Source of the DNA: a virus
Direction: 5' to 3' (one strand)
IMG/VR virus record: IMGVR_UViG_3300046808_000331
Coordinates: 1 to 37,120 of that record
Length of the DNA stretch: 37,120 nucleotides
Shown here one piece after another: positions 30,274 through 33,552 of this stretch (positions within the stretch are counted from its first letter, which is position 1; every line of letters starts with the position of its first letter). Under the pieces are notes generated by a model. The model made no database searches. It worked only from the letters and a program-made list of their open reading frames with translations, and was not told where the DNA came from. Made by a program: the position numbers and the translations under genes.

Positions 30274-30930
30274 CTATAATAATTCTATTGTGAATTTATA
30301 TATATCGGGTCCCAATATTGGTTCCCCAATTACCTCAAAATCTAATGTACTCAGCCCGTCACGCGTGTTATCGGTTCCGCGTGTTAACCTCTCATAATTT
30401 GCCGTGGCTAATTCTATATCAATTGCGCGCTCATGTTGCAAACTACGGAACACACCACCCTCACGGCGCACCGTGTTTAACCCGCTTTTTTGGCACCGCC
30501 GTAACATGTCGTCGTCCTCTGAGCCCCAACCCCAATAACCGTTGGAATATCCGTTAACGTCCTCAAAATCTTTTGCATTGAATAACGTCACCCCGCCAAA
30601 ATAAGACTCATAGGGTACGCCCCCGGGAAATTGCGACGCGTCCGTAACCAAATGCGTTGGGGCCTCGCAATATGAGTAATTGGCCGTTATTGGTAACATA
30701 TCTACGTCATGGAACGCAAACCAACGCACGCGGGCCGTGTCAAATTCCTGTGCAATCTTATACCCCGCATTTAACAAGGCCCCGCGGTTAAACGGGCGCC
30801 ACCCGCCCCCTTGTTCAATTACGTATATTCTGTGGTAAATATTACACATGTCCAAATACGCCGTAACGTATGGAACAAATATTGCCAAATGTTCCGCGCG
30901 GTCTCTGTATGGTATAATCACGTTTAACAT
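30274..30930 (-). CDS. Beta-1,4-galactosyltransferase-like (GT7) enzyme
   Basis: 218 residues. Three signature segments of the GT7/B4GALT family appear in order: WFAFHDVDMLP (the DVD metal/nucleotide site), YFGGVTLFNAKDFEDVNGYS, and NGYWGWGSEDDDMLRR, the WGWGxEDDD block that binds metal and acceptor. N-terminus MLNVIIPYRDRAEHLAIFVP is the Rossmann beginning. No membrane anchor or signal, so it works in the cytosol. GT7 is best known in animals and some bacterial capsule loci; a phage copy next to holin genes is unusual. Substrate could be a virion protein or host glycan; this cannot be read from the sequence. Confidence 0.88.
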   Translation of the reverse strand: MLNVIIPYRDRAEHLAIFVPYVTAYLDMCNIYHRIYVIEQGGGWRPFNRGALLNAGYKIAQEFDTARVRWFAFHDVDMLPITANYSYCEAPTHLVTDASQFPGGVPYESYFGGVTLFNAKDFEDVNGYSNGYWGWGSEDDDMLRRCQKSGLNTVRREGGVFRSLQHERAIDIELATANYERLTRGTDNTRDGLSTLDFEVIGEPILGPDIYKFTIELL

Positions 30931-31668: not shown

Positions 31669-32223
31669 TTATTTTTGCTTTTTATATGTGAAAATGTTTT
31701 GTTTATACCACCACTCCACACGGTCCAAACCCGCCACGCCTAACCGCAAAACGTCCTCTTTTTTATATCCGCACTCAGAAAATAAATTATGCCAATATTC
31801 ATGCGGTTGCTCATTTATGTGGTTTGTCCCACCTTGGCCCGGTACGGCCGCGGAAAATACAATAACGTCCGCCAATGCTGTTAACTCTTTTACGAACGTT
31901 TCCGCGCGCTCTGCGGGCAAATGTTCCGCAACCTCTAAACATAACGCCAAATCGTACCGTTTATCATTTGGCAATTTAGTTAATAAGTTATGTTCTAAAA
32001 AATGCTTATTTACCCTCATGTTTTTGGGCACGTAATCACCGTCCAAACATACGGCGTTAATATCCATGGCGTCAAACTGAGCGCACCACGCACCCGCACC
32101 GCCCCCAACGTCAATAACTGATTGTGGCCCGTACATTTTGAAAATTAACGGGACAACCTGTTTAGCGGACTCAGTGGCGCCGTTAATTTGGTACGCGTAA
32201 AATTGCTCATTGTATATGCTCAT
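31669..32223 (-). CDS. Class I SAM-dependent methyltransferase
   Basis: 184 residues. SVIDVGGGAGAWCAQF is the SAM-binding glycine motif I, followed by INAVCLDGDYVP (motif II acidic), YDLALCLEVAEHLP (motif III) and TNHINEQPHEYWHNLFSECGY, a pattern typical of Methyltransf_23-type enzymes from glycan and lipopolysaccharide loci. It probably methylates a small molecule, sugar or protein. It lies between the DNA methyltransferase and the tRNA. Together with GT7 and GT2 it may belong to a glycan-modification set. Other substrates are possible. Confidence 0.83.
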   Translation of the reverse strand: MSIYNEQFYAYQINGATESAKQVVPLIFKMYGPQSVIDVGGGAGAWCAQFDAMDINAVCLDGDYVPKNMRVNKHFLEHNLLTKLPNDKRYDLALCLEVAEHLPAERAETFVKELTALADVIVFSAAVPGQGGTNHINEQPHEYWHNLFSECGYKKEDVLRLGVAGLDRVEWWYKQNIFTYKKQK

Positions 32224-32226
32224 TGT

Positions 32227-33078
32227 TTAATCCTCAAATTTATTTATTACATTAAATATTTCGTAAACAACCTGTGGGACAATTGCATTTCCATACGCCT
32301 TTATACTTTCGTTTCGCCATTTTGGAAAGGTAATTCCGTCCAATCCGTAGGAAATCCCATCATCTCCGCTACAAATCGGGGACTCAGTCGGGAACCCGTC
32401 CCAGTTACCTCGCCTAAATTTCCCTTGCCTCTGTCCACTGCACTGTCTTTGTAGCAAAACGCTCTCGGAGTCGGTAGTAATCTTTTCTGAGCCATTGCCT
32501 CCAAATTCGCCCCAAACCTTTTGCCGTTCGCTCGTATTGATTGGTTGCCAATTATTTGCGTATTCTGTGAGTCTATTGGCATTACTGTCCTCGGAGTAGG
32601 CAACAAACCAAACCCGGTCTCTTCGGTGCGGCGCGTTGACGCCGCAAGCCGGAAAAACAACCGGCCAAACGGCGTAACCATTATTTTCCAAGTCAACGCA
32701 CACCTCGTCGAATACGGCGCCACCGTTCCAAGAAACAAGCCCGTAAACGTTCTCTCCCACGACCCAACGGGGGCGAACTTGCTGTATAACTCTAAGCATT
32801 GAGGGCCATAGGTGACGGGCGTCGTCTTTCCCTTTTCTTTTGCCCGCTGCGCTATACGGTTGGCAAGGGAAACCTCCGGACAACACGTCAATTTTTCCGT
32901 TCCATTCTGTAAAATCTGCATTTGTAATATCCTCAAATTGTTGGGCATTTGGCCAATAATGTTTTAAAACTTTTTTACAAAATTTATCTATTTCGCAATT
33001 AAATACATTTTCCCAACCCGCCCACTCTGCGGCCAAATCAAAACCACCAATTCCACTAAACAAACTACCGTGTTTCAT
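32227..33078 (-). CDS. dcm: DNA (cytosine-5) methyltransferase
   Basis: 283 residues from ATG 33076-33078 (ATGA overlap with the upstream nuclease). All main C5-MTase motifs are present: LFSGIGGFDLA (I), SGGFPCQPYSAAGKRKG (IV with catalytic C), ENVYGL (VI), APHRRDRVWFVA (VIII) and RNESIKAYGNAIVPQVVYEI (IX-X). The target recognition region (about 175-250) is short and low in complexity. The gene carries a second open frame on the same strand (32301-32948), which biases its codons. It may protect phage DNA from host restriction; target sequence unknown. Confidence 0.93.
   Translation of the reverse strand: MKHGSLFSGIGGFDLAAEWAGWENVFNCEIDKFCKKVLKHYWPNAQQFEDITNADFTEWNGKIDVLSGGFPCQPYSAAGKRKGKDDARHLWPSMLRVIQQVRPRWVVGENVYGLVSWNGGAVFDEVCVDLENNGYAVWPVVFPACGVNAPHRRDRVWFVAYSEDSNANRLTEYANNWQPINTSERQKVWGEFGGNGSEKITTDSESVLLQRQCSGQRQGKFRRGNWDGFPTESPICSGDDGISYGLDGITFPKWRNESIKAYGNAIVPQVVYEIFNVINKFED
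32301..32948 (-). CDS. Second frame nested inside the methyltransferase gene, 215 residues
   Basis: A complete +1 frame inside the dcm gene, ATG at 32946-32948, ending at 32301. Unlike a random shadow frame it has segments I recognise from separate phage proteins found beside dcm genes: VTYGPQCLELYSKFAPVGSW, then GFGLLPTPRTV, LLPTPRAFCYKDSA and LSPRFVAEMMGFPTDWTELP, a family end that often fuses to methyltransferases. No Shine-Dalgarno is clear. Since the dcm frame is also conserved, similarity of the nested frame could partly be a by-product; this is the main doubt. Confidence 0.5.
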   Translation of the reverse strand: MPNNLRILQMQILQNGTEKLTCCPEVSLANRIAQRAKEKGKTTPVTYGPQCLELYSKFAPVGSWERTFTGLFLGTVAPYSTRCALTWKIMVTPFGRLFFRLAASTRRTEETGFGLLPTPRTVMPIDSQNTQIIGNQSIRANGKRFGANLEAMAQKRLLPTPRAFCYKDSAVDRGKGNLGEVTGTGSRLSPRFVAEMMGFPTDWTELPFQNGETKV

Positions 33079-33410
33079 GTTCTTTGCTCCAAACATTGTT
33101 TTATTAAATCGTATGTTTCTACTTTGTGAATTTCCTGAGGCGTGAACCTGAGCACGCGCCAACCAATTACGGCCGCTTGGTTATATTTTTCCATATCTTT
33201 TACAAAACCCGACCCACGCGTGTGACGGCCTCCAATCCATACGCCGCCCTCTATTTCTATTGCTATTTTTTGGTCTAATATGGCATAGTCAAAACGCCAT
33301 TTACGCCCGTAATTCAATGCAAAATGAAACTCACTTACAATGGATATTCCGTACTCTTTGCACATGGCACGGAAAACCGCGTCGTTTAATGCGTTGTTAT
33401 TTTTTGCCAT
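33075..33410 (-). CDS. DUF559/Vsr-fold-like nuclease
   Basis: 111 residues from ATG 33408-33410. The segment WRFDYAILDQKIAIEIEGGV followed by WIGGRHTRGSGFVKDMEKYN and GWRVLRFTPQEI matches the small endonuclease family with a D...E-x-E...K catalytic set, related to DUF559 and very-short-patch-repair folds. It is ATGA-coupled to the cytosine methyltransferase, so it may repair or cut at that enzyme's sites, although many such nucleases act independently. Overlap of 14 bases with the upstream 51-residue gene. Confidence 0.78.
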   Translation of the reverse strand: MAKNNNALNDAVFRAMCKEYGISIVSEFHFALNYGRKWRFDYAILDQKIAIEIEGGVWIGGRHTRGSGFVKDMEKYNQAAVIGWRVLRFTPQEIHKVETYDLIKQCLEQRT

Positions 33411-33552
33411 GGGTTTGCTCAAAATATTGCAAAATGATAGCAAGAGCCGCCGTTACGTCCTCGGGGCGTATCATTGGTATTTCAGCCCCTAACCGCCACT
33501 CGCTAAAATGGCGCAAAATATGCACGGCCTCTGTTAATCTATCTTTTTGCAT
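33397..33552 (-). CDS. Hypothetical 51-residue protein between two nucleases
   Basis: From ATG 33550-33552: MQKDRLTEAVHILRHFSEWR, helical, ending LQYFEQTHGKK. It overlaps both neighbours by 14 bases. A longer in-frame start at 33642 would add a basic N-terminus but would overlap the nuclease gene by 104 bases. No family recognised; possibly a nuclease partner. Confidence 0.58.
   Translation of the reverse strand: MQKDRLTEAVHILRHFSEWRLGAEIPMIRPEDVTAALAIILQYFEQTHGKK

Follow-up and report, generated by a model that had tools for sequence, protein, structure and literature searches.

The cytosine methyltransferase gene (dcm) on the minus strand of the analyzed window (the whole 37 kb virus record, 37,120 nucleotides) contains a complete second open reading frame (ORF) in the +1 frame, which, judged from the sequence, is a true gene under its own selection. 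We consider it highly probable that a heterodimeric C5 cytosine methyltransferase is encoded here, with its two chains, alpha (frame 0) and beta (+1), specified by one DNA stretch; in this two-polypeptide enzyme, the nested ORF most likely supplies the beta subunit. Both frames are under selection, a motif IX-like segment is present in beta and not in alpha, and the same segment is found split off or fused in relatives.

The window carries terminase, tape-measure and primase-helicase genes, and dcm is therefore a phage gene. A preliminary description of this DNA had reported a complete 215-codon frame on the same strand as dcm, shifted by +1, together with three segments of its product (VTYGPQCLELYSKF, LLPTPRA and LSPRFVAEMMGFPTDWT). 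The coordinates were confirmed, and all three segments are present in the translated product: the nested ORF runs from an ATG at 32948 to a stop codon at 32303-32301 and lies wholly within 32227-33078. The features of the locus are as follows:

32227-33078, minus strand: dcm (alpha), C5 cytosine methyltransferase, frame 0; 283 aa; PF00145 match with E=1.4e-47
32301-32948, minus strand: beta, nested +1 ORF in dcm; 215 codons from the first ATG
32857-32868, minus strand: alpha motif IV (PCQP) with the catalytic cysteine; invariant in alignments A5 and A6
32614-32628, minus strand: alpha motif VIII (HRRDR); invariant or near-invariant in A5 and A6
32592-32606, minus strand: first LLPTP of beta; near-invariant columns L120, L121 and T123 of alignment A4
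32466-32480, minus strand: second LLPTP of beta; near-invariant columns P164, T165 and P166 of A4
32337-32393, minus strand: putative motif IX of beta, SRLSPRFVAEMMGFPTDWT, overlapping FPTESPICSGDDGISYGLDG of alpha; highest excess conservation of the +1 frame; in frame before motif X in split and fused relatives
32326-32517, minus strand: alpha residues 188-251, the expected site of the small domain with motif IX; pLDDT 31-58
32272-32310, minus strand: alpha motif X, ESIKAYGNAIVPQ, aligned to QAYKQFGNSVVI of M.HhaI; pLDDT ∼93

The frame-0 product is recognizable as the catalytic chain of a C5-methyltransferase, matching PF00145 with 163 bits (curated cut-off 22), but only over model positions 1-189 of 324, and M.HhaI over residues 16-178 of the latter (phmmer). 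It contains motifs I-VIII and X and lacks motif IX; likewise, no motif IX pattern was found upstream of motif X in the other nested alphas. In these, PF00145 coverage ends at 161-168; it extends over positions 2-323 in two canonical enzymes with no nested ORF (L260 and L277), and over 1-317 in Martik (L183), in which the corresponding segment is in frame. Pfam coverage alone is no proof of the absence of motif IX, because it also ends at 164-165 in two Streptomyces enzymes that have this motif in frame 0. The AlphaFold2 model of alpha comprises a confident large domain (Foldseek match to M.HhaI with E=6.5e-13 over ∼170 columns), and residues 188-251 are predicted to be disordered in alpha alone. 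Beta would be expected to complete the small domain. The model of beta alone was poor (mean pLDDT 59, pTM 0.28), with the exception of a hairpin at residues 88-110 and a helix at motif IX. These predicted folds fit two mutually completing chains, without proving it.

Searches with beta revealed no known family in Pfam, NCBIfam or PADLOC, and no relative of solved structure in single-sequence and PDB profile searches. The only sequence matches to known families were phrog_1008 (E=1.6e-21, residues 16-207, i.e. most of the protein) and small related PHROGs. Using tblastn, 77 phage records were matched, including those of Paenibacillus, Lacticaseibacillus and Klebsiella phages. Among the related loci fetched from viral contigs and phage records, ∼170 share the +1 ORF in the same relation to dcm, and it is open for 137 to 379 codons; in the third frame, open stretches are mostly of 20-80 codons. 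The nested arrangement was found in phages and in genomes of Bacteroidota, Bacillota, Actinomycetota and Pseudomonadota. PHROG 1008 is matched by every one of the 82 sequences in alignment A2. The label of this family, "DNA methyltransferase", denotes the whole enzyme, whereas the family looks like the nested or split beta chain, and by these comparisons the label is misleading.

The C-terminus of beta, RLSPRFVAEMMGFPTDWT, is its most constrained part, with M, G, P and W invariant in 82 sequences. The motif IX pattern of C5-methyltransferases is R-x-L-x-x-R-E-x-x-R-L-x-G-F-P. The beta segment resembles it, sits at the expected place just upstream of the frame-0 motif X, and is collinear with the motif IX that precedes motif X in Hoot, Jumbo and Martik. 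On the basis of pattern, position and in-frame relatives, the C-terminus of beta is most likely motif IX. When motif IX was scored by a simple pattern in 160 loci collected by the dcm protein alone, ∼130 had it in the +1 frame but lacked it in frame 0. Five loci scored positive in both frames; in the three of these inspected at sequence level (L203, L320 and L353) the full motif is in the +1 frame, and their frame-0 scores look like pattern noise. The number of LPTP modules was also observed to differ among relatives, L004 and L007 having at least three. The dcm frame contains corresponding repeats, which gives the impression of a recognition region growing by in-phase duplication to the benefit of both frames.

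The relatives show this segment in several arrangements. It is nested as in the window in Hades (L177). In mycobacteriophage Hoot (L187, gp84/gp83) and Gordonia phage Jumbo (L189, gp35/gp36), alpha ends soon after motif VIII, whereas LPTP, motif IX and motif X lie in the +1 ORF, which the records list as a methylase gene of its own; a Bacillota genome (L231) is split in the same way. In Martik, the frame of the catalytic part continues through the LPTP repeats and motifs IX and X, and this protein matches the nested-family profile with E=4.5e-9. These nested, split and in-frame forms indicate that the nested segment is interchangeable with the recognition and motif IX part of ordinary enzymes. 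In L219, L242 and L356 the frames seem to be exchanged mid-gene, the alpha C-terminus running on in the other frame; the frames may have been swapped in nature, or these metagenome-derived sequences may have been misassembled. In Mycobacterium phage Modragons (L178), a frame change disrupts a pair of the Hades type, and the record instead shows hypothetical genes on the opposite strand.

A different pattern was found in three Streptomyces loci (L252, L255 and L256) and in Gordonia phage CheeseTouch (L182), which have motif IX in frame 0. Their +1 ORF, composed of an N-module and LPTP repeats with no motif IX, nevertheless scores above all 500 shuffles; motif IX is therefore not the sole role of this frame, and the subunit model does not yet explain these ORFs. 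Their persistence, together with the restriction of sequence matches to phrog_1008 and small related PHROGs, would suit a separate protein, such as an inhibitor, a regulator or an anti-restriction factor, dispensable for methylation. We regard this explanation as improbable. The one conserved motif missing from alpha is found in beta, at the right place with respect to motif X, and other loci have this segment either separated together with motif X or as an in-frame fusion. The suggestion in the preliminary description that one product perhaps assists the other is thus supported: the motif IX missing from alpha is carried by beta, which argues for a subunit rather than an unrelated regulator.

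To assess selection on the +1 frame, the dcm protein was held fixed and its synonymous codons were permuted. In the window, the overlap contains no +1 stops, compared to 5.7 expected. Across 138 non-redundant loci, a mean of 6.7 stops per locus was expected from the same permutation, and the frames are open. This set was found mostly via the +1 frame, and the 160 loci collected by the dcm protein alone served as an independent control of ascertainment; nearly all of these have the +1 family at ≥30 bits. Within the ORF, 2 stops were observed against ∼820 expected under synonymous re-coding, with sharp boundaries; outside it, stops occur freely (134 and 177, compared to 92 expected in each case). 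In GC-rich genomes, the absence of stops alone is weak evidence (P up to 0.17).

The stop boundary bears on the position of the beta start. Across relatives, +1 stops are free up to alignment index ∼48-56 and gone from 57-60 onward. The first ATG (32948) is thus an unlikely start, and the real one is probably elsewhere; the boundary of stop avoidance points to initiation close to one of two downstream codons, an ATG at 32921 (206 aa) or a TTG at 32891 (196 aa). The same boundary is relevant to programmed frameshifting after motif VIII, which would yield a methyltransferase with an alternative recognition domain. In favor of this reading, motif VIII of Martik is followed, without a change of frame, by the LPTP and motif IX segment. 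In the nested loci, however, +1 stop avoidance starts ∼90 codons, and clear excess conservation ∼60 codons, before motif VIII, where a frameshift has no need of them. Moreover, the product would have no motif X in the window and most relatives, and in the split relatives the +1 part is annotated as a separate gene. Given that +1 selection begins well before motif VIII, frameshifting was judged very unlikely.

The preliminary description had raised the doubt that conservation of the dcm frame alone may produce similar nested frames. Part of the signal is indeed of this kind, as shuffled +1 frames retain up to about half of the native HMM score. Nevertheless, when scored with profiles from distant relatives, the native +1 protein exceeded all 1000 synonymous shuffles in 14 of 14 targets (z 5-13); scores not above the best shuffle were obtained for L251, L254, L272 and the short overlaps of Hoot and Jumbo. 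The ratio of observed to expected +1 identity was 1.10 and 1.11 outside the ORF, and 1.20, 1.69, 1.94 and 2.37 along it. The lowest of the latter values, near the outside background, belongs to the N-terminal part over motif IV, and the first ∼30 codons of the nested ORF appear to be mostly a shadow of dcm; for this part the doubt stands, and for the remainder it does not. The highest value marks the motif IX segment, with per-column z up to 21.7; z-scores across these related loci are not independent, and the proper yardstick is the out-of-ORF background, where z reaches ∼12. Over the target recognition domain (TRD), the +1 frame is more conserved than the dcm frame.

Divergence between close pairs gave a similar picture. 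By codon position it was 0.052/0.022/0.307 upstream of the overlap and 0.194/0.117/0.184 inside, as expected when the wobble base of dcm also serves as position two of a codon in the other frame; constraint on the wobble position was confined to the overlap. In an overlapping-gene codon model applied to 32 independent close pairs, the nested frame had a dSN/dSS of 0.25 (CI 0.14-0.34), compared to 0.76 in the upstream control, and a dNN/dNS of 0.74 (CI 0.65-0.82), compared to 1.08, both ratios being below 1 in the nested frame. The idea that the nested frame is a mere shadow of dcm conservation, never translated, can hardly be maintained in the face of the shuffles, stops, codon positions and substitution ratios, save for the first ∼30 codons over motif IV. 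The earlier proposal of a double-coding locus of two recognizable families was borne out by the stop, synonymous-site and dN/dS tests alike.

The heterodimeric enzyme proposed here has a known counterpart. M.EcoHK31I (YGGCCR) is built from two polypeptides: motifs I-VIII and X and the predicted TRD are located on the larger, and motif IX alone is on the smaller (PMC3404938). The motif division is identical to that of alpha and beta, and the two systems are likened by this division, not by sequence; alpha and beta very probably work as a pair, as is known for M.EcoHK31I, and the locus may be filed as a heterodimeric C5-methyltransferase of the M.EcoHK31I kind. Lee, Kam and Shaw reportedly described in 1995 that the small chain of M.EcoHK31I is encoded within the large-chain gene in another frame. 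Nesting of this type is found in the window and its relatives. M.EaeI is another two-polypeptide C5-methyltransferase. M.EcoHK31I differs in being part of an Escherichia coli restriction-modification system, whereas the window gene belongs to a phage, with no recognizable restriction enzyme adjoining it. In M.AquI, also a C5-methyltransferase in two chains, motif X is on the small subunit (PMC3404938). The window is unlike it, with motif X on alpha and the +1 ORF ending at 32301 without this motif; Hoot, Jumbo and L231 resemble M.AquI in having motif X on the +1 chain. Mycobacteriophage methylases offer a further example of a protein hidden in a different frame of such a gene, the ShiLan out-of-frame HNH endonuclease (PMC11855218). 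However, that case is a mobile insertion coding for a homing endonuclease, whereas the overlap in the window crosses the conserved enzyme core and is present in nearly all relatives. A homing endonuclease of this type was rejected for beta, which has no HNH match in Pfam.

The nested +1 gene that encodes beta has been annotated by depositors, with no subunit function stated, in Bacteriophage Lily (gp63, "g62 internal gene"), Paenibacillus phage Bloom (gp57) and Escherichia phage K1ind2 (gp33). No description of the nested chain in phages was found in the open-licence literature searched. The kind of enzyme is already known, and the spread of its nested chain (PHROG 1008) appears to be undescribed in the searchable literature.

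Three neighboring genes, all on the minus strand, deserve mention. Upstream of dcm lies a DUF559/phrog_503 nuclease-like gene (33075-33443), whose stop codon overlaps the dcm start by ATGA, which suggests translational coupling. No counterpart was found in the fetched neighborhoods of relatives, and this gene was therefore set aside as a candidate restriction partner. Directly downstream of dcm is a class I SAM-dependent methyltransferase-like gene (31669-32223), relatives of which occur near nested dcm in seven loci. Near the methyltransferases lies a galactosyltransferase-like gene (30274-30930; PF02709/PF13733), which in L092 and L012 likewise adjoins the nested dcm; the target of its product could be DNA or a surface structure.

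According to the heterodimer model, frame 0 would give alpha, the catalytic chain, which has motifs I-VIII and X, binds SAM and provides the PCQ cysteine, and an internal start in the +1 frame would give beta, with the LPTP segments and motif IX. Beta would dock on alpha and complete the target-recognizing small domain, and the resulting active enzyme would methylate the DNA of the phage itself, most likely as a defense against restriction by the host. That beta starts internally, that it binds alpha physically, that both chains are required and that methylation is protective are inferred. More tentatively, and with some doubt on our part, the nesting of a motif IX subunit may be the ordinary state of a very large phage and bacterial C5-methyltransferase family, in which nested, split and fused forms interconvert and the +1 chain has a second role, perhaps a share in sequence recognition via the LPTP repeats. 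Such a role would explain the persistence of this chain in the Streptomyces-type genes with motif IX in frame 0.

Full nesting of a long frame on the same strand, with the second frame supplying the missing motif of the first enzyme, would be one of the few clear instances in which the purpose of double coding can be read. The range of nested, split and fused forms provides material on how overlaps arise and dissolve. Recoding of the dcm frame only, for heterologous expression, would destroy the partner and lead to false negatives. As the second gene is usually dropped or misnamed by gene callers, many phage "orphan methyltransferases" may be half an enzyme annotated as complete.
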